Positions 2,415-30,229 of a stretch of DNA of 64,000 bases are shown piece by piece. The translations under genes and the position numbers were made by a program. Source of the stretch: Antedon mediterranea (taxonomy: Eukaryota; Echinodermata; Crinoidea; Comatulida; Antedonidae). The stretch's first letter is position 1; every line of letters begins with the position of its first letter. Where the stretch lies: the NCBI RefSeq assembly GCF_964355755.1, contig NC_092680.1, positions 22,049,001 to 22,113,000 of the forward strand. Direction: 5' to 3'. The notes beneath the pieces were generated by a model. That model saw nothing but the letters and a program-made list of their open reading frames with translations, searched no databases and was not told the DNA's origin.

Positions 2415-2490
2415 ATGCGTTGGCAGGCTCAATCACAGTGGGTTATTATATCGATATTTCTTTTCACGGTGACTCCGTCTAACACCCAAT
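2415..2490 (+). CDS. GPCR exon 1: signal peptide
   Basis: ATG at 2415 opens 25 codons with a hydrophobic core (WVIISIFLF) followed by TVTPSNTQ. The exon ends in phase 1 at the donor GTGAGT (2491). It joins the exon at 4811 in frame, which also begins in phase 1, giving ...NTQ-YCYPES. This fits a cleaved signal peptide directly before the first discoidin domain. Confidence 0.75.
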
Positions 2491-5400
2491 GTGAGTATGA
2501 TTATACAAATTATCTGAGTATTGCATAAGACACTTGGTTTACCTCATTTGCCTGATATATAAATAAAAATGAATAGGAACTCCCTGTTACAGGTATGTAT
2601 GTATAAACGATGACGTAGGCCTGGTTTATACTGTGATTATGGATGGATAAAGTGCTAAAAACACAAGTAATAGTAGTAGTGATGTTGTGTGACTGATTCT
2701 GAGAAGAAATCACTAGTTTACGATGCGTCTTGACTGTTTAAAGAATGTAGGCCTAGGCATACGTGTTACGGATTCACTATGTTTATACAATATTTATACT
2801 GTTGTTACACGGTGGACCGAATGATTTACGTCAGTTGTTACCGTACCGGTATTTACTGAACTGATGTGTATAGAGTTTTCTACAAATGTATTGACTATTA
2901 AACATATAACAATATTTAACATCTTGTAAGTGATACGTTGGAATTAAATGCAAATTATTGTTATACCATTCTCCATGATATTATTTATATTGATATATTA
3001 ATTGTCGGCAGAGTACGGTAATTCTAATAGAAAGCCATACTCTGGAAGTTGCCTCCCCATCGCAAATTGATTAGACCCTAGAAAAGACGATATAAACATA
3101 TGAACGTTATGATGCCTAATATGAATAATTCCTGATTATGCAAATGTGTGTTATTCGGGTGGCTGCTTTGCATTACAGGCACAATTTATTTAAACCAACT
3201 TTGTCCTTTCTCATGTTATCCAGGCAAATATGATACAAACATTTCATTCATGTGGCTTCTTTACATATGCCTTATATTTTAACCCAACTTCGTCTTGCAT
3301 GATACAATGAATATTACAACCAGGTGGCTGCTTTACATAAATATACATATGTATATCCTTTCCCCTCTCATGATTCAAGAGTAGACATAAGACACAAGAT
3401 TCATCAAACTTAAGTAACACACACTTTTCTCTTATTTGAGATAATACAGTCTGCATATTATTGAATTCCAAACACTAAAAAAACATGTGAAATGATCATT
3501 GACTTTAGAAAAGATAAAACATAACATAGCTAAGATTGGTGATTATAGGATCAATATAGTTTCACAGTGTAAATATTTAGGTACTGTCTTGGACGATAAA
3601 CTTAATTGGACCTCCAATACAAAAAAAAAAGGACAGAAACGATTGTACATAATGCACCAATTACGTCAATTTAATATTGATCCAAAAAATAATTATAGCA
3701 TTATATTATAATTCGACGATATCCATTGTGATTTATTTTTGTTTTATAATCTGGGGCGGCAGCCTTACAGCTAATGACATGGGTCTCTTAGAGAGAATTC
3801 GTAAAAAATCTTTTTTTTTTGTCTTATGTAGGATCGACCCACTTTTATTTCTTCATCAATAAAATGTTCGTTTACAATGCATGAATTCGTAAAAAATCTA
3901 ATAAAAATAGCAAATTTAAACGACATCAAGTCTAAATATGTTGCGATCCTTAAAATGGTAGAGCGTATACTCATACAACCGTCTCATCCCTTATTTTTGG
4001 AATACGAAATTTGTCCGTATTAGATCTCTTTACACTCGCTGGTAGATATAGAAAGTCTTCCGGACTCCATAACACTATATAACAGCAAAACATCTAGATA
4101 AGATTAGTATAACTATAAACTGTGTTTCACTGTAGGCATCATGACAATGTGTTGTTACTGGAATCTTTTGCCTGTATGCCTTTGTATCTTTTGATGTGTT
4201 TTTTATTATCGTATTGTTTATGTTATATTTAATCTTAAGAGCTTTGTCTGTGTACAAACAAGATTTAAATATTTTATATATTTGGTAATAAATGCTGTGC
4301 AAGCAGCGCATTCATCATTATTTTGTTTTGTCCTTCAGCTTTGGTAGGCGAGGTACCGTTCATAGTAGGTCTTTATCCTCCATAAAGGATATCCGTCTAT
4401 TTGTCTGTCATAGTATTAAGTCGGATTAGTTCAATAAACATGTGAAAACAATTTTCCAACATTATTAAAAATGTAAACAAAATAGAAAAATGGAAGTATA
4501 ATGATATATTACAAAAACAAAATCAACCAATAAATTGGAAGACTGACGAAGTCCGGTAGAGGGTAGGAATTATAGTAGGCCTATCAATAAAGAGGAGAAA
4601 GCTGATAATGTGTGCTGTAAAGTTATGTCATTAATGTACTGTGTTCATTTCATCCTGATATACAGGTGCACTGCATTTTAAATTCTTATTTATCTCCTAA
4701 ACGTCATTCAAACATTATGATTTCCACCATTTCTTTTCTGTTATGGCAGGATGGTTTGTTAGTGTTAGTGCAAAATCTGCATTTTCCCTTTCCATGTTGT
4801 TATTTAACAGATTGTTATCCCGAGTCTACCGGGCTAGAAGATGGTGATCACCAGTTGACTGCTTCAAGTGCTTCTGACAACTCTAATCCAGACAATGCCC
4901 GATATGACGTAATACAACCATTGGATTCCCAACAGATATCATGTTGGCAACCTGCTAGTACCGATGTATTTCCATGGATTCAAGTGGACTTTACCCAATT
5001 GTACGATATTGGGAGCATTCAGTTCCAAGAGTGCGGTGGTACCGAGTCTTCAAGCTCTAATGTCATACTAAATGGTGTGGAATACAGTCTAGACGCATCC
5101 AGTTTTCAACCATTTTTAGATTCAAACGGAGCTTTATTTGGAGTAAGGATTAATGTTTTGGTGTGTGTGTGCATTTTCTAAAGCATAATTCTAGGCCTAT
5201 GGCATCGTGTGTGGTATTGTGACTTTTTCGATCAATGCTTTCATCTTTATGTTTATTGCATGATCCCATCATCATTTTCACACTGTTTACTATAGACATA
5301 CTTATTTAATATCCTAGAAGGTTCGTTTATTTAATTATTCCTACGTCATCTGTACGGTTTCCGTTAAGCTTGGCTCCCACTCGGCGGACGCAACGAAAGG

Positions 5401-8400
5401 ACGTTAGCCAACCGTAAGTAATTTGACAAATCACGACGCGTTGTATCATCCGAATTGTCGCTTGTGATTGGTCGACTCGCTTGCGTACTTGCACCTACGT
5501 AGTTTCGTTGCTTCCAAGTGGGAACAAAGCGTTTAGGCCTATTATTAACACATACAAGGCCCACTATCTAATTATGTTATTATTTATTTATTTTGTAATG
5601 GTTTTCACTATTCAAATTCTATTCTTATTTTGTCCAGCCCGTACGAATTGATTCCTCGCAATTCGAAACACCCGTCGAATTTTGGAAACCGTTCGTAGCA
5701 CGTCAACTAAAGTTGAATATTGGAAGCGGGTCAAAGTTCAGATTTGAAGTATTTGGATGTGCCCAGACATCTAATGACTGGTGTAAGTTAATGTGTTGTA
5801 TGTCATTTAACCTAAGTATAGGAATATCACTCTTTTGATATTTTCATATGCATATGCTGTCTGAGTTGGCCTTTACATACTGTATAGGCATATGCGTTAG
5901 GTAACTTGTAATGGCGGTTGTATAACTTTAGCAATGAATAATCTTTATTCCAACTGTGAACTATACAATAGCATTGAAAGCATTGAAAGAGTTGACGATA
6001 TAACAATGATGACGAAAGGCACATGCGTTTCTTGTTACGTCATTATAGTTACGTCACTAGGCTACTGTACGGTAATGTTTCGATTGTAAGGGTTTGTATT
6101 GTAAAAAATGGATACGGTATAATTTGATGTGTAATGTAATTCTTTTTAAAATCAATTGTTTTTAAATTAGATTGTGATGGCGGAGTTATAGATACAAACG
6201 TTTCAGGTAAAATAACTTATTTATTGTTGCGAATCTTAATAGGCCTATATGTTTTTTTTTCTCTTTTGTGGCGTGAACCACCACCTTTATTCTTTCATAG
6301 CATAATTAAATACATTACAAATAAATCAGTAATATCTGTCTTCATATGTTCTTTCTTTAATTATATTGTTTTCCGTTAATATTCTACATTTTTCTTTATA
6401 TTTTTCTGCTCAAAAAAAAATATCAGTAATTTTTGTAAATTTTAGTTTTTCACATATTGTTTCCAATATTATCCTCCTGCTTTCATGGTTTGTTATTATT
6501 CACATTGTACACAGACAATATACATACCGTATTGTTTCATAGGCCTATATGTTAGCAGTAGGCCTGGTTCTACAAAACTTTCCAATGTCCTAGTAATTAT
6601 AAGAAATACATTTTAAGCAGATCATTACAGCACGTCAACTAAAATAGGATGGCATACGACTGAAGATTCGATTTCAAACCATCCGCAATTACTTTAATTG
6701 TGATGTTGGTATACAGTATAATCGAATTGAGATAATTTCTCCACGCCTTAATTAACGTTCAATGGTATTGATCTTTAACTTTATAATAGCAATGAAAACA
6801 ATGAAGTGTAGGCCTAATTAAATAATTATGAAGTTGATTGTTATTTAACATTTGTGGACGACGACAGTGTCGCCAATTGAAATAATTGAATTAAAATGGA
6901 ATATAATTTATTAAATTAACGTAATAAATAAGTAATTCATAAAGTAAAATATTCTAAAATACTGGGCTTTAGAATCAAATCTATCTTTATTTATCCTCTC
7001 AATAAAAACAAAACATGAAAAATAGGAGAATCTTTTTCTCTTTTTTTTTGCTCTTTCTTTTTTTAAAAACATGCTTTTTAGATTTGTTTAAATTATTAAA
7101 ATAATTTTTCTATGAGCGTTTACCTTGAAATCAAACTGATTTTGCTAAATGTTGTTTTTAACATAGATGGATTGGTTTGCCCGTATTCTGTGACGGTGGA
7201 TCTAGAACCTTCCACCTATGCTGCTGATTCAGAACTAACTGGCAACGAAGCATGGCGAGCAAGTTTTAATGCGTCTGGAGGATGGAGACCATCGTCTGCT
7301 AACGATGACACTCAATGCTTATACATATCATTTCCATACAGATTGAGAGTTGAAGGAATTCTTGGACAATTTAACGGACGAGAACAATTGAATGATCATT
7401 TTTATTTTCAAAGTTCATATGATGGTAGTTCATGGAGCAGAAGTAAAAATGTATGTAGTCCAAACAGGAACAAAGTTTTTTGTTCTACATATATTAAACG
7501 ACTGTCCTTTTTAATAGATCCCTCCTTTTCTGGAGGATTTTTTGAATAACTACATTGGATTTAATGTGAAATCATTACATTTTTAATAACACTGTAATAC
7601 AAATGTGTGATAAGAAAGTTATGTACGATTGTGTATGTAAGTCATGGTCGTAGTACTTTGTAATATTCTTGATTATCATGATTTTAGTTTTTACAGATTC
7701 CTCATGGAGCAATTCCATTTGATTAATAAGTTGTATACATACTGTATTGTATTGATTATAGATATTGAGCAGTGACGTAAGTGGTTGTACCAGGAGAACG
7801 TATTTCGATATTCCTGCGATAGCGCTACAGGTTCGTGTATGCTGGGTGTCACCTTCACGCTTGTTCTCTGGAAGACTTAGCGTGAACTTACTTGGATGTT
7901 TATATACAGGTAAAATTATTTTGCTGGGAAAAGTGAAGAAACTGGAGAGGTTGAAAAGGATAATGATGGTGATGACATGACTGATGAATGCAATGACGTT
8001 GAAGAAGATAATGATGTTGACAAAGATGATGACAAGGATGATGATTATGACGATTAAAGTTATTTATTTGACTTTTTCTCAAACTGTTTCAGATTGTTTG
8101 ACTCCTCTAAGAATCAATCAACAACAGAGGAATTTTAATGCTCTTATCGCCACCTCAAGTAATCAAGATAGCCGGCATGACGGAGTATCCTCAGCTATTG
8201 ATGTTATAGGAAGACTTGGTCTTGGTTGGATCCCATCTTCTTCCGATGGCAGTCAGTACTTTGAAGTTTTTATTAGTGATCCACATATAATATACGCTTT
8301 ATTACTACAAGGTTGTTCCTCAGAAGAGAAATGGGTCTTGTCGTATAAACTTGGTTACCAAAGGCCTTTGAAAATTTACATGCAATTTTTATATGAAAAT

Positions 8401-11400
8401 GACAATTACGCACCTAAACAAGTGGAACAGGTAAGTTTTACAAGAGTTTTAACAATTTTGGTTTCCCATATTTTAAATGTTGTTACCTTAACCCAAATGC
8501 TTATAGACAACTTTTGATTGAAGGTTTATGAACCATTAGTGTGACTATGACATTTTTGTTGGAGAATTTTTCTTTGGTGTCAAACCGGGTAAAATATTTT
8601 GGTGACCTGAAATTTCGTGAACTCTCAGTTCAAATTTCTACAAAGGCAGCCTAATTATATAATACAATTTGCTTTTTGTGTTAGATATTTGAAGGTAATA
8701 TGGATCACAATAGTATAGTGAAGAACATCCTGCCATATTCAGTAACCAGTGATATCCTACGCGTCATACCGGTCACGTGGCAGAATGATATATGTCTACG
8801 ACTTGATGTCATCACTGGTATTAAAGCAGGTAACAAATGTTCTATTCAGAGTGATACTTTCTTTGATTTCATTTGTTTAGTGTCTCAAAAACTTAAGCAT
8901 TACAGACATCGATTACCATTATAAATAAACCATTATAAATTAAAATGCTAAAAAGTGTATCTACCAATTATAAGATTCGGAATCTTTTTTTTTTTCGTTT
9001 TGTTAAATTATGACTATTGAAACTGTTATAGGGCCTATTGTAATAAATTCAATTTGAATAAAAAAGAAAATATAGGAAATGATTAAAACATGAACCGGTA
9101 CGGGCTTTACTACTTTGAATATTACTCTAAGCGCATTGACAAAAGTACTAAATTCTTTAATATATTATACTTTGTATATAAATTCACCATTCAACCGTAT
9201 CCTAACAATTTCTGATTATACTAATAAAAATTAATAACATTATTGCTAATAATATTATTATAATTTAATAACTTACATAACAATGGATGTATTTATTTGT
9301 AATAGATTGTTTAACGCCAATTGAACCAATAAGTATTGAACAAGTGAGTGCCACTAAGGAGGACATTAATTACCCATCATCATACGTGTTTACAAGCTGT
9401 TGGTTAGGCACCGAATTGGATGATCAACCTTTTGAAAATTGGCTACAGCTTGAATTGTATCAAGACTACCTTATTACAGCAGTCAATTTTGACTGGATAG
9501 AATATGAGGCAAAATCTGGGTATGAAACTAAGGCTTATCGTATCAGTTATAAGTCAAACACTCAAGAAGAATGGCACTTATACATAGATCAAGATGCAAA
9601 TCAGGTAAATACTAATCAACATTCAAGCTTGGTACAACATTATTCAAACTGCCTACGTCATTCCATTAACCAGTAATATCATATAATTAATGTAACAAAA
9701 TCTTTATAAAATCATTATTATTATTTATTGATAGATGAGTTGAGAATCTCCAATAAAGTCGCAATTTACTTATATATAATCTACTTATAATGTACAGTAC
9801 TTATAATTAAGGTATGCGTCTGAGGAAGTGTCGGTTAGGTGTGTTCTCGAGGAAGTGTCTGTGAGGTGTGTCTGGACTCTGCTGAGACTGTAGTGTATAT
9901 TAGCTTCTGTTCATTAGCACAATGTCATTATATCAGCTTACAGCTGATCTTATGTTGATTGATAGTATCTTAATGATAGATACTGTTGTCAAATCTCTTC
10001 ATTAATTTTATGTTGGTAAAGGTTTAGGTTAGATAAACGGTGTTCTTGAGGGAACTGGTTGGTTGTAATATTCACGAAAAACATCTGGTCAGTTTTTAGG
10101 GCAAATTGGGGAACTTATATTAATGGAATAACTGTAGTTCATCTAAACCTAGGATTTATGATTATTAAAAGAGTATAACTATAGCTGTCGCAGGGACTTT
10201 TGTTTAAATTCTGATATTACATTTCTGATGTTTTGTGTCACTATAACACTTCTATTATTTTTGTTATAGAATATCACAACGTATGATTATCTGGAACTAG
10301 ATCACCCTTTTACAGCAAACACATTAAGGATTTCATTAGGATTCGGATGTTTGCGTATAAATAGCATATCTGGATTCGCTATAAAGGGTGTTCAACCCCC
10401 AAACTGTAGGTTGCATCATTTGCATTTATTTCTTCAGCATAATTTACTATATACAAATAACCTATTTTCGATTTATTATAAATGGTATAATTTATTGTAA
10501 TAGATTGTGAAGGCAGTGTGGAAATGGAAGATCAGTTTTTAAGTATTTATGGTAAGTATACCGTCCATTGACACCGCTTCGTTCCAGCGTTTTGAAGCTT
10601 CCACATGAGAGCTCACCGGAACAGAATTCAAAAGAGCACGAGTAAAAAGAAGAATAATTTTAAAAACTTTTAAAAATTTAACAAGAGAACCAAATTAAGA
10701 AGTAAAAGATGTTGCAAAGACGAGCAGAAAGAAAGATAAAGGATACAATTATTGCCATAGAAAACCGGTTCACCCGTTGCGAAAAATATGGTTTGTTTAA
10801 AGCATGTAGCATGAATTTAACGTTTTGTTTTGTCATTTACTTTTCAGACGACTGTCCATTTCCAATTGGACTTGAGTCTGTAAAGGTAAAAGAAAACCAG
10901 CTAACAGCTTCTTCTTCTATTGATGTCTATCACTCTCCTAACAGTGGACGTTTGAATCATTTATATGGCTGGCAGGCCGAATTCAACAACCAAGAGCAAT
11001 GGTTTCAAATTCAGTTTGACCAACGAGTGATCATGACAGGGTTATTACTACAAGCAAGTGATAACTGTAACTTGAGGAGGTTCGCTTTACAATTTAGCTA
11101 CCCATCTGTAGACAATAATGAAATGATGTTTTATGATTATAAAAATATGATGAATTCCATTCAAGTAAGTACTTAAGTAAAGTTATTTAAATATTCGAAC
11201 CATTTATAGCATGATTCTTTGTACTTCAGTCGTCCTGTATTGTCATTACAATATTACTCTTAAGAATATTGTAAACATTTTTCAGAATAAATTGATAAGA
11301 AAAGAAAAAAGCATACACAATAAACAAGTGAAAATTATGAATGTTGTGTGAATGCGTTTTAGATTGATTTAGATTAATAACATAATCGTACAATCAAACT

Positions 11401-14400
11401 CGTAATATAAAGCAGTTACAGTTACAGTTATGAGATTAGTACTTGATTGTTACTTTACTGAATAAGTGATGTTCAAATAAATTGCATCTTTTAATTAATT
11501 ATGTAATATTATGAATATTATCTAGGAGTTTATGGCGTCCGATAGCGTTAACTGCACTGAACGAGTGCCATTAATACCGTATATTCGTGCCAATTATTTA
11601 AAAGTATTACCATTGGAATGGGATAACTGTATTGGGTTACGAATGGAAGTCCTTGGTTGCAATGACAAAGGTTAGATATACCATTTATTATTTACTGTAA
11701 TTGTAAACATCAGAATAATCTTGGTATATAATATAGTTATATTTTAATTTACGCAGAGTGTGACTCAACAGCTGGGATATCATCTGGTCAGATTGTCGAT
11801 AACTCGTTCACTGCATCTTCAGCTCTAGACGAAAACCATCTCCCATCAGCTGTTCGTTTGGATAGCCTCTCTTATTCAGTATCATGTTGGAGGCCGGCTG
11901 TATCTGATGACCAACCTTGGATACAAGTGTTCTTTCCTCCTATGACTATCCATGGCATCGTTATGCGAGGATGTGAAAATAATCTTTGGGTTGAAAAGTT
12001 TACGCTTCGCTACTCGTACGACAACGAACTTCCTTTAGCTGTACTAGATTCAAATGGATTTATCAAAGTAATATTTTTTATTTTAACACATCAAATAGTA
12101 AAGATTAGTTTCCGACTTATCCTTTAATTTATGTTTCACTACACCCTTTGGAAATTTGAATGTTCATCTAACGAATAACTTAATGAGTAATCAGAATAAA
12201 TAGGCCTATGTTGTATTTCCTTTTCTTAGGAATTTTTAGCAAACGTAAATTCCTACGATTTAGCCTACATTGACCTGGGTACAGTACTTGATAATGCCGT
12301 CAGTCTGACTATTCGTCCAATACAGTGGTCTGGTGATATCGCCATGTCGTTCGAGATAGTAGCTTGCGAATATAAAGGTAGGTATTCAGTATTACTGAAT
12401 TATTCGTCAAAATTATACAATTGTTTGGTAGCAATAGAAAGAAAACCATTTTAAATAAAAGTTTACTTAGTTCTTATTAATTAATCGTAAAGGCAATTAG
12501 GCCTAATTGTTAATTTCAACAACAATCGTCTTTGTTTGTCTTTTGTTTTTCTCTTTTTCACCCAACTTCATTAAAGCGCATTAAGTGTCTGTGGAACGTG
12601 CTATACAAATGAATCAACATCAGCATCTGTGTTGTATTCACGACATACTGACAATACAATCATTATTCAAAATACCTAACCTAAATAAATAATTGAATCC
12701 TTCAATATATTTAATATTTGCTAGCATGTTCAGGAAGATTAGGAATTGAATCCGGTGAAATTACTGACGACCAGATAGAGATCATGTGGTCTGGAGCTTC
12801 ATACCCAGGATCTCTTAGATTGTATGGACCTATTATACACCTTAGAGGCTTAACTTCGGCAGCAACGCGTTATGGTTACTACAGAGTATCATTCCCAGAT
12901 CTGCATTTAATACATGGTACAATTACACTTACAACTGTCAGTTTTGCAACGCCAGAAGAGTTGTTGTTTTGGATTGAATATATGTATCAAAATGAAACCT
13001 TAACATACCAAACAATAAACGGTGAAACAGAGGTTTGCGATTTTACTTTTCTCTTCACAAAATCTGAAACTAAATTTGTTTTGAAATGATTTAGATTAAT
13101 CCTGGATTACTATAACATTAGGCCTATTACTATCCTGTACTGAAGTGATTACCGGTAATAAAGATTAAATTAAAAAGTAAATTAATATAATGAATATTCA
13201 AAACAACATTCAATAATGTTTATATTCACTCCTTTTTCAAAATAAGATTATGAAAAAACTCATCATTGAAATTGGTATTATCATATGTATTTTAAGAACA
13301 TGTATTTATTAAAAAATTAAACTAAACTATAACTAAACATTTTATGTTGTAGATGTTTCTTGGTGGCGAGGTTCAACTTGTCGAAATAACACATTGGTTT
13401 GGTCGACCAATCACCACAAACCAAGTAACTTTCTACACTTCCTCTGGTACATACCTATCTTACTTACAATTTGAACTATTGGGCTGTTCACTGGCGGGTA
13501 AGATAACTTTCTTGTTACTATCTACGTAATGTATTTGTTGGTTGTACAGATTCATATGGCCTTCTATGTATACTTTTACACAAGTGGACAGACAGACTGT
13601 CACGAATATCAAAGCAAATACGTAATAGATATTTATATTGTAAGTAACTTAACGACATATTTCTATCCTTAGGAATTGAAACGTAATCCATGTTTTAATC
13701 TTTTTTGTTTTATGAATAAATACCAATGAATAAATAATAATCAATCTTTAGATACAAAATACGTTTTACAAAAGGCACCAAAACAAATATACATAAGATA
13801 TATATACAAATGGCTTATAATTATGCATTTAAATCATCGTTTATAAGGGTATTTTTCCTGTTTTAGAAAGAGGCGCCCTTTGTGTTGGAGCTGGCCAAGA
13901 AGCATATAACGGCTTTTGCTTCGGAACAGTTGAAAGTAGTGATGAAGCCGCGTGTCATGAAATCTTTTCCGCTGGGGCTCAAAGGGCAATTGTCCGCTCA
14001 GAAGATGAAGCACATTTTATTCAAATGTCTAATCCGTTCAGACGTGATACGTACAATCTGTATATTATTGGAGCATCTAGTAATTCTGTGGGAGAGCTTT
14101 TGTGGGTAGATTCAACACCGGTACTTTACAGTAATTTTAGAGATCAACCAGTTGTGATAAATGACAACCAATGCGTTGCCCTCGATGATTTAGACAATCA
14201 GGACTGGAATCTATTTGATTGTGATGATTACTTATCAGCATCTAGAGCAACTCTCTGTCAGATTGGTAAGATTTTGTACAAAAATGTTAATTATTAGTTA
14301 ATTATTATTTAGGTTAACCCATACTATAGTATTCAAGAAATAGACATATCATTCTATTATTTGTAAGTAGCTTATATCAGCTTCTGCTTTTACGAAAGTT

Positions 14401-20400: not shown

Positions 20401-23400
20401 TCAAGCGATGAAGCTGCATGTGATTGTAAGTTGAAGAACATTCAGTCTAATTATAGTTGCCGTTGTTTTCTAAGAATATTTCGATTATGACATTACAATT
20501 TTTTTGTGATGCGTGAGATAATTAATTGTGAACGTGTAGTTGTTTGTCAAAATGTCTTTTGTTTTTAAATGAAGTTTCATAATTCCAATTCAACTTGTAT
20601 TTTAATAGTTCACCATATTATTATTTTGTTCTCAGTTTCTTCTTGTCCAGATGGTTATGCACTAGTAGTTAATAACTGTTTATCCTTGTCTCTGATATGT
20701 GATGGTATAAACCAGTTGAGAGGTGGAGCCGATGAATCTGGTTGTAGTAAGTTTAATTATAATTGTTTATATTATTTCTATGATTGAGATGTTTACTTCT
20801 TTCTTTAGGTCTAACCTATGAATGCCAAGTTTCCTAATAAATTCACCAAAGTATAATTTCACTATTCTCTGATAAATCCATTCGTTTCCATTACAAAATA
20901 TTCCGTTACAATGAAATTCTATCTCTCTTAATCACTAATTTTATTTCTGTAAGCTTCTTATCTATTCATGTATGTACATTAAATTGTTTCTTACAGTATT
21001 CCCGAGTTGTTCAGAAGATGAGTTCAAATGTCAAACTGGGTTTTGTATTAACAATACTTTAGTTTGCAATGGTGTCACTAATTGTGTCGCTGGAGAAGAT
21101 GAAGCTGATTGTGGTATGGCATCATTTACATTCACGCAACCATTTCTATTTGTTTGGCCCTTTAAACATTTTTTTTTTGAGAATTATTATCTATATTATC
21201 TTTACAAAAATGACATAGCAATATTATAATAGTGGTGTTATATTTTGTATGTTCACAATTTTATCGTTTTCAAATATATTATGTATATTTTTATCAGTGA
21301 ACTGCGCCGGTGGATTTTTCCAGTGCCATGATGGAAGTTGTATTCCAAACCATGCCGTATGTGACGCAACCAAAGATTGTAGAGGAAGAAATTACGAGGA
21401 CGAACCTGTAGAGTGTTGTAAGTTGCTCTATTTATTTAACTCGGCTATCTCAGTATTATAATGCTTTATAACATTCCTTGTATTGTATTGACATAGTTTG
21501 TCCAGTGGCGTAACGCAGAGGTCTGAAGCCCCCAACTCTAAGTGGCCCTCCAACGCTGGAGGCCACGGATGTTTTGTCGACATATTTCAATGCCTGTTTT
21601 TCCTCTGGGCACTGCAATAATGATAATTTTCTTAAAATACGTTTTTATAGACTATAACGAAGCCTCTAACAATACTTATTGCTTAGAAAGCGAGGAGATG
21701 TGTAAGAATGGTGCTTGTATCAGCAAAGATCTTAAATGCTTGTATGATGTAGATCAATACAGCATTCAAGTTGGATGCAGAGATTCTACACATCTGGGCT
21801 CTTGTCGTAAGTACAACAAATGATTACGTGTTTATTCTCACTGAAATAATCTTCCAGACTTAATACTGGTGTTTGTATCTTATTTTTAGAGGATTTTGAA
21901 TGTCCAGATTATATGTTCAAGTGTCCAAATTCATACTGTATTCCAATGAGGCGTCGATGTGATGAGATATGGGATTGTCCAAACGGAGAAGACGAAACGG
22001 GGTGTTGTATGTATTGAAACAATGCTATAATAAGTACACAATATTGTGTTTGAATACTGAAAAAAATAAAGTACCTTTAATGACATATAGGCGTATTTAA
22101 CCATAAAGTTAAGATTGAAAATGTGTAAATATAAGATTTTATCTCTACATAGTATTCCTTTATTACATAATCAAATAAGCCATTGTAGTAGGCTTACAGT
22201 ATTCTTTATTTTATCTTCTTTAGCTTCTTATACATGTTCTGATTACTACCATTGTCGATCATCCCAGCAGTGCTTGTCTCCAATGGAGGTTTGTGATGGT
22301 GTCAAACACTGTCCACTTGGTGATGATGAACAGTTTTGTGGTAAGAAAGTTATTACAAATATATTGTCATGTCTGTTCAAAACCCCCGGGTAAGAATAAT
22401 ATACTAGCTAATTCTAATTTTGTTTTGTGGTAAGAAAGCTATTAAAAATATATTGTCATGTCTGTTGTCACCCTGTATTATCAGCTAATTCTAATAAGAT
22501 TGATTTCGGTAACCCTTTATCCATGTTGTCTTTCCTAGACATATCCTGTCCATCAAGCTGTACATGCACAGGGTTTGTAGTACAATGTCCTACAACATTA
22601 ACCAGGCCCGTAGCCAGGGGGGGTTTTTATGGTTCGGGCGAACCCCCCCTTTACACCGAACCCCCCTTAACCGACTGCGAACCCCCATCCCCGACATGCC
22701 CAATACCTCACCCTCATCTCCGAAAATCGTCCAAATACGTGCCCCACACTACAAAAAGTTGTTCGTAAATTAAAAAAATTTGTAAACTCGTTCGGAATAA
22801 CTCATACAGTACCTTCTTCCCTGTATGAGCGTACTTCGAGCGATATAGTCTGTAAATTTCTAAGAGTTGCAAATGAATTGCCGATTTTATCAACATGATA
22901 TTGACGCGTCTCACAGCGAGCTGGGGGACGAACGATTCGTACAAAGGACACCGCCAGACAACTGCGTACCAATTGTTTAGATCACTGGCAGTCAGGCAGC
23001 ATGCATAAAGTATATAGCCTTCCGACATACATCAGTATTTATGTGTGGCTATGAAGTATAATGTATCATAGAGGATTATAGTGAATATCAATATTTTACA
23101 CTATAATATCTATGGTATCATGTACTGTAGTTCACATTATGGCATCCGATTATTTTTTTCTAGACCACCAGCCGATACGTACTCAAATGTATCAATATCA
23201 CCTATTTACATTGGCATATTTAATTTCCTCAACAAATTGCTGTAAATAAATATTATAGATAGAGCTATAATAAGAATTGCATTTTCCTTCACCCAGTGTG
23301 CTTTTTTCGGGGCTTCTCCTAGACGTACGTTCGCATTGAACTTGAACGCAAAACAAAATATCGAGTAAAATGATCTAACAATCGGCGGTTCCGCACAGAG

Positions 23401-26400
23401 CACGCGCATCTAACATACGGCAACAAATGTTATCGTTTAAATAGTCCACGAGTCCAAGTACGATCGTTTTGCTCATTGGTAGCATGCTGCATGAGAGTGT
23501 CTTATCCGGCCATCTAGGGGTGTCATTTAACAAAATTTGCTTCGCCGATACGTACTCAAATGTATCAATATCACCTATTTACATTGGCATATTTAATTTC
23601 CTCAACAAATTGCAGTAAATAAATATTATAGATAGAGCTATAATAAGAATTGCATTTGCCTTCACCCAGTGTGCTTTTTTCGGGGCTTCTCCTAGACGTA
23701 CGTTCGCATTGAACTTGAACGCAAAACAAAATATCGAGTAAATGATCAAACAATCGGCGGTTCCGCACAGAGCACGCGCATCTAACATACGGCAACAAAT
23801 GTTATCGTTTAAATAGTCCACGAGTCCAAGTACGATCGTTTTGCTCATTGGTAGAATGCTGCATGAGAGTGTCTTTTCCGGCCATCTAGGGGTGTCATTT
23901 AACATTGCTTCGCCGATACGTACTCAAATGTATCAATATCACCTATTTACATTGGCATATTTAATTTCCTCAACAAATTGCTGTAAATAAATATTATAGA
24001 TAGAGCTATAATAAGAATTGCATTTTCCTTCACCCAGTGTGCTTTTTTCGGGGCTTCTCCTAGACGTACGTTCGCATTGAACTTGAACGCAAAACAAAAT
24101 ATCGAGTAAATGATCTAACAATCGGCGGTTCCGCACTGAGCACGCGCATCTAACATACGGCAACAAATGTTATCGTTTAAATAGTCCACGAGTCCAAGTA
24201 CGATCGTTTTGCTCATTGGTAGCATGCTGCATGAGAGTGTCTTTTCCGGCCATCTAGGGGTGTCATTTAACAAAATTTGCTTCGCCGATACGTACTCAAA
24301 TGTATCAATATCACCTATTTACATTGGCATATTTATTTTCCTCAACAAATTGCTGTAAATAAATATTATAGATAGAGCTATAATAAGAATTGCATTTGCC
24401 TTCACCCAGTGTGCTTTTTTCGGGGCTTCTCCTAGACGTACGTTCGCATTGAACTTGAACGCAAAACAAAATATCGAGTAAATGATCAAACAATCGGCGG
24501 TTCCGCACAGAGCACGCGCATCTAACATACGGCAACAAATGTTATCGTTTAAATAGTCCACGAGTCCAAGTACGATCGTTTTGCTCATTGGTAGAATGCT
24601 GCATGAGAGTGTCTTTTCCGGCCATCTAGGGGTGTCATTTAACAAAATTTGCTTCGCCTCAGGCCCACCCCAGGGGGGGGGGGGGGGGTCGGTAGGTATG
24701 GGGGTGGGGTGACCCAAATACTTAGTGTGCGAACCCCCCCTTGACAGATCCTGGCTACAGCCCTGTTAACCCTTAATATCCATGTTGTCTTTCTGTCCAT
24801 CAAGCTGTACGTGCACAGGGTTTGTAGTACAATGTCCTGCAACATTAACCCTTAATATCCATGTTGTCTTTCCTAGACATATCCTGTCCATCAAACTGTA
24901 CATGGACAGGGTTTGTAGTACAATGTCCTGCAACCTTAACCCTTAATATCCATGTTGTCTTTCCTAGACATATCCTGTCCATCAAGCTGTACATGCACAG
25001 GGTTTGTAGTGCAATGTCCTGCAACCTTAACCCTTAATATCCATGTTGTCTTTCCTAGACATATCCTGTCCATCAAGCTGTACATGCACAGGGTTTGTAG
25101 TACAATGTCCTACAACATTAACCATCGCAGATCTACAACTTATTCCAGCTTCTGTTAGATTCCTGTAAGTAAAGACTTAAATGTAAAATTCCAATGTGAT
25201 TCAAAGGGCATATGTCTGAATAATAATGATTATTTTAAAATGCAGTAAGGTGTGTTTTCTTCCTGTATTTATTTCTAATGTTATTTAACCCCTCCGACAA
25301 ACATTGTAAATATTCTCCCACTGGAGAAAAGGCGATTCACACTCCCTGGCGTCTCCACTAAATAACAGTACATTAATCTAACAACATTCTGAAGAAGTAG
25401 TAAATTAGTTTGATGTATATCGATGCTATGTTTTTCAGAGATTTAAGTGGAAGTCTACCAATTAGTACAAATGACAAACGTAAGAAAAGAACGATTGTGG
25501 AAGACTTTTTAGTCATTCTTGATAAATTTCCGTTTCTTCATACATTGTAAGTATCATTCATTAGTTTTCATAAATTTTCCTCTTGAAGAAATTTAGTTTT
25601 TCACAACAACGAACCTAGAAATAATGAAGGAAAGAGTCATTAATAATGTTATATTTTCAGAGATCTATCCGACAACAACATTGAATCACTTAATCCTGGT
25701 GGATTTGCATCGCTTATCAATTTGAAGAAACTGTGAGTGTGTTGTCATTAATGTTCGAGTTCGATGTCAAATCCGACTCTTATTAGCATTTGTTGTAGAA
25801 ATAATATAAGTAAAAATGTGAATGGAATTTTGAATTGAAGATGCAATGTGTATGGACAATTACACAAGTAAATAATTTACTGTAGTAATAATATTTGATA
25901 AACATTTGTAGTGTGTGCTCAAGCACACACTACAAATGTTTAAGAAACACCAGTTTATGAATAAAATATACCTTAATGTATTTAACATTTTATAGAAATC
26001 TTTCCCGGAATTCTATTATTCTGTTGGAAGATAACGCATTTCTGGGTCTTACAAAGCTCAACATTCTGTAAGTATTTAGCAAAATTACCAATGTAACGTA
26101 TTCTAAGAATTCTTACATCGATAAAACAATATAGAGTACATAGAAATATTTAGAAATGTTTAGGAAATAAACTTTCACAAAAACACGAGGTCATTCTTTA
26201 AAGTTGTCAAGATCCACACCTAAAGTAGAAGTAAGGAGGCACATTTTTTAGTATTGGAACTCACCTCCGAAGATGTTGTTTGCGCTTCTTCCATAAATAG
26301 ATTAACATCTAGTTTAGAGAAAAGTTGGTCTGAACCCTATTTAAACTTTCACCCATATACAAATTAAGAGTTCTCAAGAATGATCAAGAGGGACAAACGA

Positions 26401-29400
26401 GCGTAGTTCTCAAGGTTCAAGGTAAACATCGCCTCTCAGATTGTTTGTATCAAAAATAATATTAAAACGAAATTAAGACTTACAACACATACACAAATAA
26501 TATACATATTATTTCTTAAAGGGACATCAGCAACAATGGTCTTATAGAAATTGATAATAACGTATTTATTGACATCAACAACACGATAGAGTTGTAAGTA
26601 TTTTATCAGTTCTTTATAATTTGTATAATCTAGCCAGGAAATATAAAATTAATTATAACATATAATAAAAAATTAATCCCTCAATTAAAATGTTAATAAT
26701 TATACAGAACCAGGAATACAGGAAATAACAATGCTACCAGAACACATTAAAGATGTATTGTCCCTTGAAACACAAAAAATGAAGGTCAAAATATTCTAAA
26801 TTTAAATTGGCCATATCAAAGTAATATTAAAGTTATTCACTTTAAGTCGAAAATTCGAGCCAAAAACAAAAAGTTTACGTAATTAACAGGTAAATTAATT
26901 TGATTACATTTCGTCTGGAAAATCGTCGCGAGCGAAAGTAAACAAAGATTTCAAACCACGAGTATGCATTATGCATGATGCTAATTAGGATTGTTTACAA
27001 CTCGTCACGGTTGAGAAAGTGTTTTCACACAGATCGCGAGGAAGTTTTATGATTATGCACACAGAGTAGCCAAACAAGCGCGTTGCATTATGAGATATGT
27101 TTTGATCGAAAACTTTGACTGGAAGTCAAAGTTATTTTTGAACAAAAAACGTCTGTATTTCAGTTAAATGGTTTTTTTTTACTCATTTTTTTGTGAAAGT
27201 TAATAACTATTATGATACTTCAAAATGACCCACTTTTTTTCGAAATCTTTTTTTAAAATTTTTTTGGAATTAGTCAAGGGACAATACATCTTTAAGTTAT
27301 ATATGATTGACCATTATAAACAAAAGTTCAAACCAAAAACATTTCAGATTCATGCAAGGAAACTTAATTGATGAAATAAGCGGTACTGCTTTTGATTCTT
27401 TAACGGAGCTGAGGATTTTGTAAGTAACGAATATTGAAGCTAATCTTTTTTTTGTACTCAAAATCAATCACATTTACCATTAAAGACGAAATAAAATGGT
27501 ATTCAAATTCAACAAACATATATTTCATCAAATACCATACTAAAATATTAATATTGGTAGAAATTTGTTGATGATTTTGTATACAGTTTATCACTGTTAA
27601 TACATGGTAAGTTGTATTGTATTTTTAGATAAATTGTTATAGCAGAACTGTTTTTTTATTGGCTGACTATTGTATTTATATTGCTTTTGTGTTAGGGTAT
27701 CTGATGACTACAGGTTCTGTTGCTTGGCAACAACCACCACGTCTTGCACCCCGGAAGCAGACGAGTTTTCATCATGCGCGGATCTGATGAGACACCAGGC
27801 TTTGCGCGTGTTTGTCTGGATTCTAGGTCTCAGTGCTTTCATTGGAAATTTCTGTGTAGTTCTTTGGCGATTTAAAAATAAGCAGAAAAATAAAGTTCAG
27901 GGCTACCTGATCCAGAATCTAGCCGTTTCTGATTTCTTCATGGGAATTTATTTATTGGTTATAGCTTCCGCTGACATTTACTATCGGGATAGTTACGTCG
28001 TCTATGCCAACCAATGGAGAAACAGTAGACTTTGCAGCTTCGCTGGATTTTTGTCCGTTTTCTCAAGTGAGATGTCTGTATACATTTTGACAGTAATTTC
28101 AGTCGATCGTTTCATTTGCATTGTCTTTCCATTTAGTAGATTCAGAATGCGAGGAAAGGGTGCCATCCGTGTCCTCGTTATTGGTTGGGCTGTGGTATTT
28201 TTAATCAGCATTATTCCATTATTTGGCATTGACTATTTTGCTAACTTTTACGGTGTGAATGCAGTTTGTCTTGCTTTGCCCATTACACACCAGGACATTC
28301 CTGCTGCTGAGTATACAATCATTGTTTTCTTAGGACTGAATTTGACAAGTTTTCTTCTGATAGCAATTTGCTATGTATCAATGTATATAAACGTTAAAAG
28401 ATCAGCAAATCGTCTGAAGGACAATATCATAAGAAATGACAGCAAGAGGAAAGAATTGAAAATGGCAACGAAGATGGCAGTGATTGTGTTAACCGATATG
28501 TTTTGTTGGTTGCCAATTATCTTAATGGGAATTCTTGCACGTGGTGGAGCTGTGAGCATACCAGGTTCAGTTTATGCATGGACCGCAGTTTTTATTTTAC
28601 CTTTAAATTCTGCTATAAATCCTCATCTGTACACATTCTCTTCGTATATTACGTTGGAAAAGAAAAAGAAGGCCGTAACATCCAACAATACAGGTTCAAC
28701 GCCAATAAGTACACCGCAGCCTATGAAGAAATTAAGTAAGTACTTACATAATACAAGTATTATCTTTTCCTCGACGTGACTTGCAACATTACATTTCATG
28801 GCAGGATGATGTGATGATATGTTTATAATTTTTTATTGTATATATTTATTTATTTATTTGACTATCCCAATTATATTCCATCTTTTTTTTCTTTTTGAAT
28901 CCTTCTAAGTTTTTTTAACTGTCGATTATATGTCCATAACATTTAACCACATAATCAATATCCATATTTTCGATTTTACGAAATTCGAAGGACTCAAACT
29001 TATATTTCGTTATTAAGTTGATATTTTAGAAAGAAGTATAATTGTTCTTATTTAAGTTGCCATTCCCAATATACAGCTTCATGAGTGGATTAAAGTTTTG
29101 TATAATTTTTATTGTTATTGACTAAAATGTTTATTTTTTAAAATTCAAGATAACATTCCTATGTGGGTTGTACCAGAAAACGCTCAACGAAAGCGTCAGC
29201 TCTTACCGTATTTACGCGAATCGTCAACTCAATCTGTATCTATAGCAAAGAGATTTAAAGATAGTGAAGGAGGTGGAGTTAAAGATGAAGAAATAGCAGC
29301 GATAGAGAAGCAATTCAAAGAGGTGATTACGATTCTTAAAAAGTGTCAGAAAGGACAAAGTAAACTTGCTGTTGAAACTGACCATATAAGTAAAAGTGAA

Positions 29401-29556
29401 GAGCACATAAGTAAAAGTGTTGAAGAGTTAAATACACTTGAAAACAACAGTAATAATGTAGATGATGGAGATGGAGATGGAGATGAAATCAGTAGAGATG
29501 AAAATGACGTAATGATAGGTATCAATAACCAAGAAACAGGAAATACAAAATGTTAG
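2415..29556 (+). CDS. Mosaic LGR-type GPCR: F5/8C x7, CTLD, EGF, CUB, CTLD, LDLa x7, LRR, 7TM
   Basis: Forty-three coding exons were joined by hand. Each junction has GT-AG and matching phase, and the total is 8,649 nt (2,882 residues plus stop). Approximate residues: signal peptide 1-25; seven discoidin domains 26-1120 with two short linkers; CTLD 1121-1253; EGF 1254-1293; degenerate lectin-like piece 1294-1378; CUB-like and two CUBs 1379-1778; second CTLD 1779-1932; seven LDLa 1933-2233; LRR cap and LRRs 2234-2401; relaxin-receptor-type 7TM 2401-2747; acidic tail to 2882. The LDLa-LRR-7TM core is that of type C LGRs (relaxin receptors, molluscan GRL101). The discoidin, CUB and lectin extension is additional. 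The likely role is a plasma-membrane receptor with a very large adhesive or carbohydrate-binding ectodomain; ligand and G protein are unknown. Exon coordinates are in the entries below. Confidence 0.88.
3488..4080 (+). mobile_element. LINE reverse-transcriptase remnant in GPCR intron 1
   Basis: Frameshifted pieces read IIDFRK, then [32 protein letters not shown] and, in another frame, [18 protein letters not shown] and HPLFLEYE. These are typical of the C-terminal end of non-LTR reverse transcriptases of the CR1/Jockey/RTE kind. Stops and frame changes show that it is dead. The boundaries are approximate. Confidence 0.7.
4811..5782 (+). CDS. GPCR exons 2-3: F5/8 type C (discoidin) domain 1
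   Basis: Exons 4811-5142 and 5638-5782 meet in phase 0. Discoidin landmarks are present: Cys near the start, G-L-E-D-G-x-x-Q-L-T-A-S-S, A-R-Y, W-I-Q-V-D-F, and the terminal pair of basic/aromatic residues with final F-G-C. The same intron position, splitting the domain in phase 0, recurs in all seven discoidin domains. The intron between the halves holds a MITE. Confidence 0.88.
5367..5533. mobile_element. Short MITE with ~35-bp inverted repeats
   Basis: The left end (GCTTGGCTCCCACT, then CAACGAAAGGACGT) and the reverse complement of the right end (GCTTTGTTCCCACTT, then CAACGAAACTACGT) match over about 35 bp, with about 100 bp between them. It lies in the intron of discoidin domain 1. Similar non-autonomous DNA elements are common in marine invertebrate genomes. 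I could not fix the target-site duplication. Confidence 0.65.
6171..6206 (+). CDS. GPCR exon 4: 12-residue linker microexon
   Basis: This 36-nt exon ([13 protein letters not shown] with its flanking split codons) has phase 1 at both ends and consensus sites (TTAG acceptor, GTAAAA donor). It starts with the same AT-TGT pattern as the discoidin exons, so it may be the vestige of a lost domain start. Removing it would leave the frame intact. Confidence 0.6.
7167..7909 (+). CDS. GPCR exons 5-6: discoidin domain 2
   Basis: Exons 7167-7450 and 7762-7909. The first half has the initial Cys, a Y-A-A-D-S-E-L-T segment, G-G-W-R-P-S, and Y-I-S-F in place of the usual W-I-Q-V-D. The second half ends in V-N-L-L-G-C. 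The intron after it (about 7910-8092) contains GAT-rich low-complexity sequence. Confidence 0.85.
8093..8829 (+). CDS. GPCR exons 7-8: discoidin domain 3
   Basis: Exons 8093-8430 and 8685-8829. It has a DCLTP start, [19 protein letters not shown] and a YKLGY strand. The second half contains [19 protein letters not shown]. The usual closing G-C is replaced by V-I-T-G-I-K-A-G, so the closing disulfide cysteine is missing from its normal place. Confidence 0.85.
9306..10405 (+). CDS. GPCR exons 9-10: discoidin domain 4
   Basis: Exons 9306-9604 and 10270-10405. It starts DCLTPIEP and has [13 protein letters not shown] and Y-R-I-S-Y-K-S. The second exon keeps the tail fold ([10 protein letters not shown], then FAIKG) and ends in phase 1 at the donor GTAGGT. 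It is more divergent than domains 1-3. Confidence 0.78.
10504..10551 (+). CDS. GPCR exon 11: second linker microexon
   Basis: This 48-nt, phase 1-1 exon reads [17 protein letters not shown] with its split codons. Its position and start match exon 4, so the two linkers (before domains 2 and 5) may share an origin. The donor GTAAGT is perfect. Confidence 0.6.
10848..11670 (+). CDS. GPCR exons 12-13: discoidin domain 5
   Basis: Exons 10848-11164 and 11526-11670. It has [27 protein letters not shown] and W-F-Q-I-Q-F, then [19 protein letters not shown]. It is one of the best-preserved copies. The open frame before 10848 is intron read-through and is excluded. Confidence 0.87.
11757..12377 (+). 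CDS. GPCR exons 14-15: discoidin domain 6
   Basis: Exons 11757-12067 and 12230-12377. Landmarks are G-I-S-S-G-Q-I, F-T-A-S-S-A, SCWRPA, PWIQVFF and FTLRYSYD, closing with A-M-S-F-E-I-V-A-C. The motif VLDSNGF near the end of the first exon resembles FLDSNGALF in domain 1, suggesting recent relatedness of domains 1 and 6. Confidence 0.87.
12725..13497 (+). CDS. GPCR exons 16-17: discoidin domain 7 (divergent)
   Basis: Exons 12725-13032 and 13353-13497. It starts [13 protein letters not shown] and ends FELLGC, as in the family, but the middle lacks the usual Trp-rich strand. The donor of exon 16 (GTTTGC) is weak, though phase and length fit the other six pairs exactly. Confidence 0.78.
13867..14265 (+). 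CDS. GPCR exon 18: C-type lectin domain 1 (single exon)
   Basis: One 399-nt phase 1-1 exon encodes a full CTLD of about 133 residues: YNGFCFG, a helix with A-x-C-H-E-I, [33 protein letters not shown] and final TLCQI. WNL replaces WND and DQP replaces EPN/QPD, so calcium-dependent sugar binding is doubtful. The open frame starting at 13882 is a shifted reading of the same exon. Confidence 0.85.
14505..14624 (+). CDS. GPCR exon 19: calcium-binding EGF domain
   Basis: This 120-nt phase 1-1 exon starts DLDECVRDD and has six Cys in EGF spacing with [10 protein letters not shown]. The D-x-D-E-C start and the N/Y-F motif region are those of cbEGF modules. Confidence 0.9.
14823..15473 (+). CDS. GPCR exons 20-21: degenerate lectin-like segment
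   Basis: Exons 14823-14980 and 15377-15473 join in phase 0. The first has the start of a CTLD (NQCYTVLDD, then [16 protein letters not shown]). The second (STSCRTSDA, then [10 protein letters not shown]) has Cys near the end but lacks the long-loop and WIG-type motifs. It reads as a decayed CTLD of about 85 residues. A different, unrecognised cysteine-rich module cannot be excluded. Confidence 0.6.
15098..15309. repeat. Intronic TTAC-based tandem array
   Basis: Blocks of (TTAC)n alternate with TTTGTCGAACCAATTCATTG-like words, about five times, in the intron between exons 20 and 21. The open frames across it are artefacts of the repeat. Confidence 0.85.
15945..17430 (+). CDS. GPCR exons 22-23: CUB-like domain
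   Basis: Exons 15945-16101 and 17186-17430 join in phase 2. The second exon ends with a CUB-like strand pair ([10 protein letters not shown], then [10 protein letters not shown]). The first half is divergent and lacks a clear CUB start. It is assigned as CUB-like from that ending and from the two clear CUB exons that follow. Confidence 0.6.
16168..16267. repeat. 20-bp tandem repeat x5
   Basis: Five exact copies of TGTGTCTATACGTCCTGCAT lie in the intron between exons 22 and 23. A degenerate start (TGTGTTTC) follows. Confidence 0.95.
17626..17994 (+). CDS. GPCR exon 24: CUB domain
   Basis: This single 369-nt phase 1-1 exon has the CUB landmarks [32 protein letters not shown], the paired Cys of the second disulfide and final GFEASYTT. 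It lacks the full acidic Glu-Tyr-Asp calcium site of C1r/BMP1-type CUBs. Confidence 0.88.
18086..18135. repeat. Dispersed repeat scrap (CATCCAACAGC...GGATG)
   Basis: An intronic segment with CATCCAACAGCC and, 20-odd bases on, AAAGGATGTCTTA. The same arrangement recurs at 36,392-36,430. CATCC and GGATG are complementary, so both could form a short hairpin, as the 3' tails of some retroelements do. No family is assigned. Confidence 0.3.
18288..18716 (+). CDS. GPCR exon 25: CUB domain
   Basis: This 429-nt phase 1-1 exon reads [53 protein letters not shown] and GFVARYEE. It is a canonical CUB with C-terminal extension residues. Acidic residues (D-V-D-I, K-E-D) could form a calcium site. Confidence 0.92.
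18917..20036 (+). CDS. GPCR exons 26-28: C-type lectin domain 2
   Basis: Exons 18917-19123, 19286-19373 and 19870-20036. The domain has [60 protein letters not shown] and HFICEQ. It is a long-form CTLD with six Cys. Q-P-E stands where EPN/QPD lies, and the WND motif is lost, so the calcium site looks incomplete. The acceptor of exon 27 has a weak pyrimidine tract (TTGGAAAAG). The donor of exon 28 lies in a tandem triplication. Confidence 0.88.
19993..20208. repeat. Tandem triplication (~70 bp) over the donor of GPCR exon 28
   Basis: The word AGGCATTTCATTTGTGA recurs at about 20000, 20073 and 20143, followed by TTTACCCAAYTATG and GTACATTACAGAATCT. Copy 1 is the exon end with the used donor (GTGAGT at 20037). 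Copy 2 has lost the GT. Copy 3 keeps an intact donor near 20179. Read in the exon frame, copy 2 meets a TGA. Confidence 0.9.
20261..22340 (+). CDS. GPCR exons 29-35: seven LDL-receptor class A repeats
   Basis: Seven exons, all phase 1-1: 20261-20425, 20636-20746, 20997-21113, 21298-21417, 21651-21806, 21890-22006 and 22224-22340. Each has the LDLa cysteine pattern; most are 111-120 nt, with longer first and fifth exons. Repeats 1 ([16 protein letters not shown]), 3, 6 and 7 have good acidic calcium cages. Repeat 2 lacks a Cys pair and repeat 5 has an inserted, weakly acidic C-terminal half, so these two may not bind calcium. Relaxin receptors have a single LDLa module and GRL101 has many. The module is needed for signalling in the former. 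Confidence 0.92.
22332..22495. repeat. Tandem duplication over the donor of the last LDLa exon
   Basis: TTTTGTGGTAAGAAAG, ATATATTGTCATGTCTGTT and AGCTAATTCTAA occur in the same order twice, starting at the exon 35 donor and again near 22420. The duplicated copy includes the last few exon bases and an intact GTAAGA donor. Confidence 0.8.
22510..22602. repeat. Upstream copy of the LRR-cap exon start
   Basis: A copy of the acceptor (TTGTCTTTCCTAG) and of the first coding bases for [13 protein letters not shown]. It is cut off at its 3' end by the transposon at 22603. It belongs to the 91-bp array continued at 24766-25125. Confidence 0.85.
22603..24765. mobile_element. 2.16-kb DNA transposon copy, TSD TTAAC
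   Basis: The termini are CAGGCCCGTAGCCAGG and, at the right end, CCTGGCTACAGCCCTG, an imperfect inverted repeat. The 5-bp TTAAC flanks both sides (22598-22602 and 24766-24770). G/C-homopolymer tracts lie inside each end. No intact transposase frame was found, so it is non-autonomous. It split an LRR-cap exon copy. The superfamily is unresolved: CAGG-type ends recall hAT, but hAT elements make 8-bp duplications. Confidence 0.85.
23171..24655. repeat. Four ~371-bp tandem units inside the transposon
   Basis: GCCGATACGTACTCAAATGT begins units at about 23171, 23544, 23912 and 24284. The units differ by a few substitutions. The other element copies (56,960 and 60,444) have only one such unit, in whole or in part. 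The minus-strand open frames here repeat with the unit and are not genes. Confidence 0.92.
24766..25125. repeat. 91-bp tandem array of the LRR-cap exon start
   Basis: Further copies of TTAATATCCATGTTGTCTTT + CCTAG + exon start have exon starts at 24877, 24968 and 25059, plus one copy near 24790 that has lost its acceptor. The period is 91 bp (not divisible by 3), so splicing to an upstream acceptor would shift the frame. Confidence 0.92.
25059..25164 (+). CDS. GPCR exon 36: LRR N-terminal cysteine cap
   Basis: This is the last copy of the array. It alone continues into a full exon (SVRFL and a GTAAGT donor at 25165), with phase 1 in and phase 2 out, fitting exons 35 and 37. [14 protein letters not shown] is a typical LRRNT cap of relaxin-type receptors. 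Confidence 0.88.
25439..27419 (+). CDS. GPCR exons 37-41: leucine-rich repeats
   Basis: Exons 25439-25546 (108 nt), then 25661-25732, 25996-26067, 26522-26593 and 27348-27419, each exactly 72 nt with phase 2 at both ends. This is the one-repeat-per-exon layout of LGR genes. The repeats read LxLSxNxIxxLxxxxFxxLxxLxxL. The first exon has an Arg/Lys-rich insert (DKRKKR). Five repeats are fewer than the ten of human relaxin receptors. Confidence 0.92.
26751..27291. mobile_element. 541-bp MITE flanked by TTAA
   Basis: AGATGTATTGTCCCTTGA at the left end is mirrored by TCAAGGGACAATACATCT at the right end, and TTAA flanks both (26747-26750 and 27292-27295). The TTAA target suggests a piggyBac- or Kolobok-type mobiliser. 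It lies between two LRR exons. A second, 3'-truncated copy is at 50,963. Confidence 0.88.
27696..28735 (+). CDS. GPCR exon 42: relaxin-receptor-type 7TM domain
   Basis: One exon carries the hinge ([18 protein letters not shown], very close to LGR7/8 hinges) and seven helices. Class A marks: GN in TM1, LAVSD in TM2, Cys before TM3, DRF in place of DRY, Trp in TM4, a Cys in loop 2, DMFCWLP in TM6 and NPHLY in TM7. The segment [19 protein letters not shown] is characteristic of type C LGRs. The intronless 7TM exon is also usual for some LGRs. Family assignment is secure; the ligand is not known. Confidence 0.95.
29150..29556 (+). CDS. GPCR exon 43: cytoplasmic tail and stop
   Basis: It joins exon 42 in phase 1 (KKL-N-NIPMW). 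It encodes a Lys/Glu-rich, probably helical stretch, then an acidic run (DDGDGDGDE), and stops at TAG 29554. If the intron were retained, exon 42 would instead end after 14 further residues at 28779, giving a shorter tail. Confidence 0.75.
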
Positions 29557-29821: not shown

Positions 29822-29827
29822 AATAAA
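29822..29827 (+). other. Poly(A) signal of the GPCR gene
   Basis: AATAAA lies 266 bp after the stop, followed by TGTGTACATTC. It gives a short 3' UTR that ends just before the convergent gene's 3' end. Confidence 0.55.
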
Positions 29828-29874: not shown

Positions 29875-30229
29875 AGGCCTAAAGTATAACATAGTAATTT
29901 TCTGTAAGCCAAACGTGCAATTAGAATTCAATTTAAATTTTAATCAAAAAATTAAAATCAGAGAAAACACACTTTTAAGGATCTTTATACCAATTTATAA
30001 AATGAATAAAATGTTATTTTGTTGCTAAAATGACGAACTCAGAGCATACACTATCATAAATCTAACCCTACCCAGTCCTACCTAATATTCGAACAAAATT
30101 GCATATCCGCACCAGGCTAATACACCATGTACACCATATTAAAATGATAATATTATACAATATTGGATTAAATAAACATAACTAAATATAATATTAAGCT
30201 ATTAGATAAACGTATCAAAATATTAAACT

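Follow-up and report, generated by a model that had tools for sequence, protein, structure and literature searches.

Type C receptors of the LGR family are marked by LDLa modules and are divided into types C1 and C2 by the number of these (PMC4561518, PMC11863921). As described in PMC4561518, relaxin receptors carry a single LDLa and 10 LRRs, the LDLa acts on the seven-transmembrane domain (7TM) in RXFP1/2, and type C2 receptors of echinoderms and molluscs have up to 12 LDLa. Lymnaea GRL101 is described with six LRRs and twelve LDLa (PMC8286064) and starfish GRL101 with six LDLa (PMC6267866); Veenstra reported one GRL101 in each ambulacrarian examined, with drawings that show LDLa and LRR as the only modules (PMC8286064). 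Lectin-bearing GRL101-like receptors of snails, clustered in a schistosome-resistance region, are called unique for their lectin domain (PMC12297450), and a 2025 table of choanoflagellate GPCR families gives LRR and LDLa as the only extra domains of the rhodopsin family (PMC12716839).

The window (the whole stretch of 64,000 nucleotides analysed) carries a predicted gene with a considerably larger set of modules. A preliminary description of this DNA had proposed that discoidin, lectin, EGF-like and CUB modules stand ahead of the LDLa-LRR-7TM part of an LGR-family receptor, and this is borne out by profile matches. As read from the sequence, the predicted architecture is real, coherent and unusual. 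The reading preferred here, with a probability of roughly 60%, is that one gene encodes an LGR-family receptor, most likely a GRL101 (C2), and that exon shuffling of phase-1 modules extended its ectodomain.

Gene model and order of modules

The gene model consists of 43 exons on the + strand (2415–29556) that join in phase to encode 2,882 residues; exon ends were set by eye within the first 33 kb of the window and checked by script, and rebuilding gave the same exon count, span and protein length as the preliminary description. AG acceptors (42/42) and GT donors (42/42) are present throughout, and the coding length is 8,649 bases, stop included, with all 2,882 codons open. The nearest in-frame stop 5′ of the ATG (TAG) is 21 nt away and AATAAA is found at 29822, 3′ of the stop codon; poly(A) motif counts within the introns are uninformative, as these are AT-rich. 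A different exon 10 donor, at 10387, would by arithmetic give 2,876 residues and was dropped in favour of GTAGGT at 10405. Pfam was run on the two protein halves and then on ten separate pieces, while Rfam at gathering thresholds gave no matches. The profiles place F5/8C (discoidin), C-type lectin, EGF-like, two CUB, a second C-type lectin, LDLa, LRR and 7tm_1 in that order along one strand, as follows (DS, discoidin unit; aa, residues).

2415–2490, + strand: exon 1, start codon plus a segment resembling a signal peptide by eye, aa 1–25
4811–5782, + strand: exons 2–3, discoidin DS1, aa 26–184 (Pfam 37.1 bits, cut-off 28.2)
6171–6206, + strand: exon 4, linker of 12 residues
7167–7909, + strand: exons 5–6, probable discoidin DS2, aa 197–340 (shared two-exon phase pattern)
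8093–8829, + strand: exons 7–8, discoidin DS3, aa 341–501 (Pfam 38.9 bits)
9306–10405, + strand: exons 9–10, discoidin DS4, aa 502–646 (Pfam 35.0 bits)
10504–10551, + strand: exon 11, linker of 16 residues
10848–11670, + strand: exons 12–13, discoidin DS5, aa 663–816 (Pfam 34.7 bits)
11757–12377, + strand: exons 14–15, discoidin DS6, aa 817–969 (Pfam 28.0 bits, cut-off 28.2)
12725–13497, + strand: exons 16–17, discoidin DS7, aa 970–1120 (factor VIII match, E 6.9e-05)
13867–14265, + strand: exon 18, C-type lectin domain 1, aa 1121–1253 (Pfam Lectin_C 8.9e-06, 26.8 bits, cut-off 22.6)
14505–14624, + strand: exon 19, EGF-like domain, aa 1254–1293 (three EGF-type families below cut-off)
14823–17430, + strand: exons 20–23, no module assigned, aa 1294–1512
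17626–18716, + strand: exons 24–25, two CUB domains, aa 1513–1778 (Pfam CUB 7.1e-29, two stretches)
18917–20036, + strand: exons 26–28, C-type lectin domain 2, aa 1779–1932 (Pfam Lectin_C 9.1e-10)
20261–22340, + strand: exons 29–35, seven LDLa-like exons, aa 1933–2233 (Pfam 4.7e-37, five stretches)
22539–25058, + strand: within intron 35, degenerate copies of the exon 36 start with three extra acceptors, split by a transposon
25059–27419, + strand: exons 36–41, LRR N-cap and LRRs, aa 2234–2400 (Pfam LRR_8 1.7e-16, two stretches)
27696–28735, + strand: exon 42, short hinge and 7TM, aa 2401–2747 (7tm_1 1.1e-33; RXFP1 213.9 bits)
29150–29556, + strand: exon 43, cytoplasmic tail and stop (gene model)

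The N-terminal part of the protein matches F5/8C at 4.3e-47 in five stretches. When the units were scanned apart, four of the seven exceeded the Pfam cut-off (34.7–38.9 bits vs 28.2) and DS6 fell 0.2 bit short of it, with 61.1 bits in a leave-one-out profile. DS7 scanned alone gave no Pfam match; its match to factor VIII spans the whole unit, and its leave-one-out score was 17.4 bits (best shuffle 7.6). No Pfam match was obtained for DS2 scanned alone, for which the leave-one-out profile gave 11.0 bits (best of 200 shuffles, 2.6) and the best match among solved structures was an enzyme (E 0.12). The leave-one-out test is weak for divergent units, because DS4 lies near the shuffles there (7.0 bits vs 5.4) yet is Pfam-positive. 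The seven discoidin domains originally proposed thus become six supported ones (four by Pfam, DS6 near the cut-off, DS7 through factor VIII) and one, DS2, that is probable only. In all seven pairs the first exon ends in phase 0 and the second, of 136–148 nt, in phase 1, and this common pattern suggests that the array arose by repeated duplication of one module.

Between the discoidin array and the LDLa block, exon 19 matches three EGF-type families, each just under its own cut-off (FXa_inhibition, 1e-07; EGF_CA, 2.1e-05; EGF, 0.0011), and residues 1294–1512 (exons 20–23) gave no meaningful match in the scans made. C-type lectins that bind sugars in a calcium-dependent manner carry EPN or QPD plus WND motifs. 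A motif check found neither EPN/QPD nor WND in either of the two lectin domains, which speaks against calcium-dependent sugar binding. Six cysteines are present in six of the seven LDLa-like exons (four in exon 30), and a crude calcium-cage pattern fits three of the seven. The last four of exons 36–41 are 72 nt each and in phase 2, the LRR count by eye being about 5–6. The 7TM contains DRF, FCWLP and NPHLY motifs. As 19-residue windows with mean hydropathy of at least 1.6 occur only from residue 2436 on, it is the only predicted membrane anchor; residues 1–25 are below this threshold, the signal peptide being a by-eye call.

Several other features were seen on either side of the gene. Positions 1–843 of the window (+ strand) appear by eye to encode the C-terminal portion of a single-pass membrane protein, gave no Pfam match, and end in a tail with many tyrosine motifs (YLRL, YLIV, YYMLL, YLSV, YVCV) reminiscent of immune-receptor tails. 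A minisatellite (30224–31447; 22 copies of a 56-bp unit) lies between the receptor gene's 3′ end and long open frames on the − strand (31666–46173), of which seven were scanned and three gave matches: RHS repeats (7.4e-23; 36636–37880), CARDB (1.2e-23; 39435–43325) and HYR-like (1.9e-07; 44356–45648). RHS repeats are, to our knowledge, unusual in animals outside teneurins. Open frames at 51406–53534 (− strand) resemble a LINE endonuclease and ORF1 in appearance only, and the one piece scanned (52423–53109) gave no Pfam match.

Receptor class

RXFP1 is the best PDB match of the 7TM, and a single match to RXFP1 (261 bits) covers both the LRRs and the 7TM. Scores of the 7TM against solved structures were 213.9 bits for RXFP1, 177.3 for TSHR, 159.6 for LHCGR, 155.6 for FSHR, 117.6 for 8w1z (labelled family-1 GPCR only) and 77.8 for LGR4. 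Identity in the 7TM is nearly equal for RXFP1 (117/308) and TSHR (113/294), so that types A and C are told apart not by identity but by the LDLa block. The hinge is closer to that of TSHR (CTPKSDEFNPCEDIM) than to that of RXFP1 (CKPNTDGISSLENLL). A structure of the 7TM exon predicted without an alignment had a mean pLDDT of 46.8 and was set aside.

As in type C2, an LRR ectodomain and a class A 7TM (LRR_8, 7tm_1) are combined with more than one LDLa (five Pfam stretches, seven LDLa-like exons). Type C1 receptors combine about 10 LRRs with a single LDLa, or with two in the case of some starfish receptors, an arrangement not found here. LDLa are absent from type A but present in this receptor, though its hinge and 7TM are TSHR-like, and type B has 16–18 LRRs and an LGR4-6-like 7TM, against about 5–6 LRRs and the low LGR4 score above. 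GPS/GAIN, which precedes the 7TM in Adhesion GPCRs, gave no Pfam match at E up to 0.1 in the whole protein. The earlier label ‘relaxin-receptor-type’ is too narrow, because seven LDLa exons and about 5–6 LRRs fit a GRL101-type (C2) receptor better. The predicted receptor is therefore most likely a type C2 LGR of the GRL101 branch and not a relaxin receptor proper and, in an ambulacrarian, the gene would be either a strongly lengthened GRL101 or else an extra one.

Gene borders and alternative readings

The phase-1 borders of the extracellular modules mean that the joins can be read through regardless, and the same exons could thus belong to two adjacent, phase-compatible genes, the first for a secreted discoidin-lectin-EGF-CUB protein and the second for a classical GRL101 (LDLa-LRR-7TM), in line with the published drawings of ambulacrarian GRL101s, which show just LDLa and LRR (PMC8286064). 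An in-frame ATG with a hydrophobic run was found before exons 5, 30 and 33 (3 of 42 introns, vs 0.46 expected with shuffled introns) and, in a differently bounded scan (13000–27700), also before exon 32. Translation of a shorter classical form could therefore begin within the model, and the runs ahead of exons 30, 32 and 33 favour a second gene. However, none precedes exons 24, 26, 29 or 36 in frame, the upstream part has no terminating stop codon, and the introns at the block borders are merely 369 bp (17–18), 195 bp (23–24), 200 bp (25–26) and 224 bp (28–29), leaving little room for a gene border. Two genes are unlikely on this evidence, although this is the alternative that survives best.

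Intron 35, at the LDLa/LRR border, is longer than those at the other block borders (2,718 bp), which counts against a single gene, and holds an array and a transposon. The first 61 bases of exon 36 occur five times (at 22539, 24786, 24877, 24968 and 25059; 53 to 61 of 61 identical) around a partly decayed 91-bp array, the first copy beginning 198 bp after exon 35. The same acceptor (TTTCCTAG) stands before four of these copies, at 22538, 24876, 24967 and 25058, and only the last keeps the frame open to the exon 36 donor; reading to this donor from the three upstream acceptors meets stops after 76, 53 and 63 codons, and their use would yield an ectodomain without the 7TM, or mRNA decay. With four acceptors here and internal ATGs in frame, one locus might give several products, namely the full receptor, a short classical GRL101 that begins at an internal start within the LDLa block, and shortened ectodomains, perhaps secreted, that arise through an upstream exon 36 acceptor. 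The upstream acceptors may nevertheless be unused or cause mRNA decay, and this second alternative is also doubtful, ranking after two genes.

The transposon (about 22603–24765, ~2.16 kb) lies inside the first exon 36 copy with TTAAC on both sides and has 16-bp terminal repeats (CAGGCCCGTAGCCAGG / CAGGGCTGTAGCCAGG) and four internal 372-bp repeats; relatives are found in the window at 60438–61477 (84–86%) and 56961–57608 (77%). That this insertion and the 91-bp array at exon 36 mark lost function in a decaying or assembly-distorted gene is very improbable, given 2,882 of 2,882 codons open and an intact last copy of the exon 36 start.

Tandem copies of an exon border were seen a second time within the receptor gene, where a 70-bp array (19992–20209) carries three copies of the exon 28 end, with a donor in units one and three (by eye).

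Possible action and comparison with known receptors

For the preferred single, lengthened receptor, we infer docking, a ligand class and G-protein coupling as follows. The far end (discoidin array, lectin, CUB) would dock on a matrix, cell-surface or microbial assembly of protein or lipid; this contact, either by itself or in concert with an insulin-like peptide at the LRRs, would shift the LDLa-LRR-hinge unit relative to the 7TM, and the shifted unit would switch on a G protein. The adhesion-type modules of the outer part suggest that the receptor may sense surfaces or large complexes, not only a small hormone, and sensing of a surface is possible judging from its predicted modules. A more specific version, in which an adhesion array was added to a peptide-hormone receptor to give a surface- or microbe-sensing LGR whose docking on a matrix or microbe gates the response to an insulin-like peptide, and in which splicing to one or another of the repeated exon 36 acceptors decides whether a membrane receptor or a soluble ectodomain is made, is speculative and is held with lower confidence than either a two-gene or a several-product locus.

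If the preferred reading is true, large adhesive ectodomains were acquired by the rhodopsin-family LGR line and not only by Adhesion GPCRs. Together with the lectin-bearing GRL101 clusters described in snails (PMC12297450), the receptor would be a concrete candidate for a surface-reading GPCR, and would allow a test of whether a docking partner and an insulin-like hormone act on it jointly.

Among the literature matches listed, as far as these lie outside subscription papers, none was seen to place discoidin or CUB on an LGR; automatic annotations of such LGR proteins may well exist in eukaryotic and predicted-protein databases. Discoidin, CUB, LDLa and lectin modules do occur on GPCRs of amphioxus (PMC2246102), but these are described as Adhesion family members, many with GPS, whereas the receptor here has a rhodopsin-family 7TM without a GPS/GAIN match. 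Ciona LDLRR-GPCRs share LDLa repeats on an LGR-like receptor but are described without LRRs (PMC2396169). RXFP1 and RXFP2 (type C1 LGR) also combine LDLa, LRR and 7TM, and differ in their one LDLa and 10 LRRs; adhesion modules are not named for them in the account of PMC4561518. The SudRes2 GRL101-like receptors of Biomphalaria sudanica are similar in that a C-type lectin domain precedes their LDLa, LRR and 7TM (PMC12297450); these snail proteins are, however, defined by LRR, LDL and lectin, and neither ‘discoidin’ nor ‘CUB’ appears in the main text of PMC12297450. The short hinge is shared with type C LGRs as described (PMC4561518), and several LDLa, a short LRR run and a class A 7TM are shared with the GRL101/type C2 LGRs reported from Lymnaea, starfish and other ambulacrarians (PMC8286064, PMC6267866). 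Unlike those GRL101s that are described with LDLa and LRR only, the predicted receptor has about 1,900 extra N-terminal residues, made up of discoidin, lectin, EGF-like and CUB modules.
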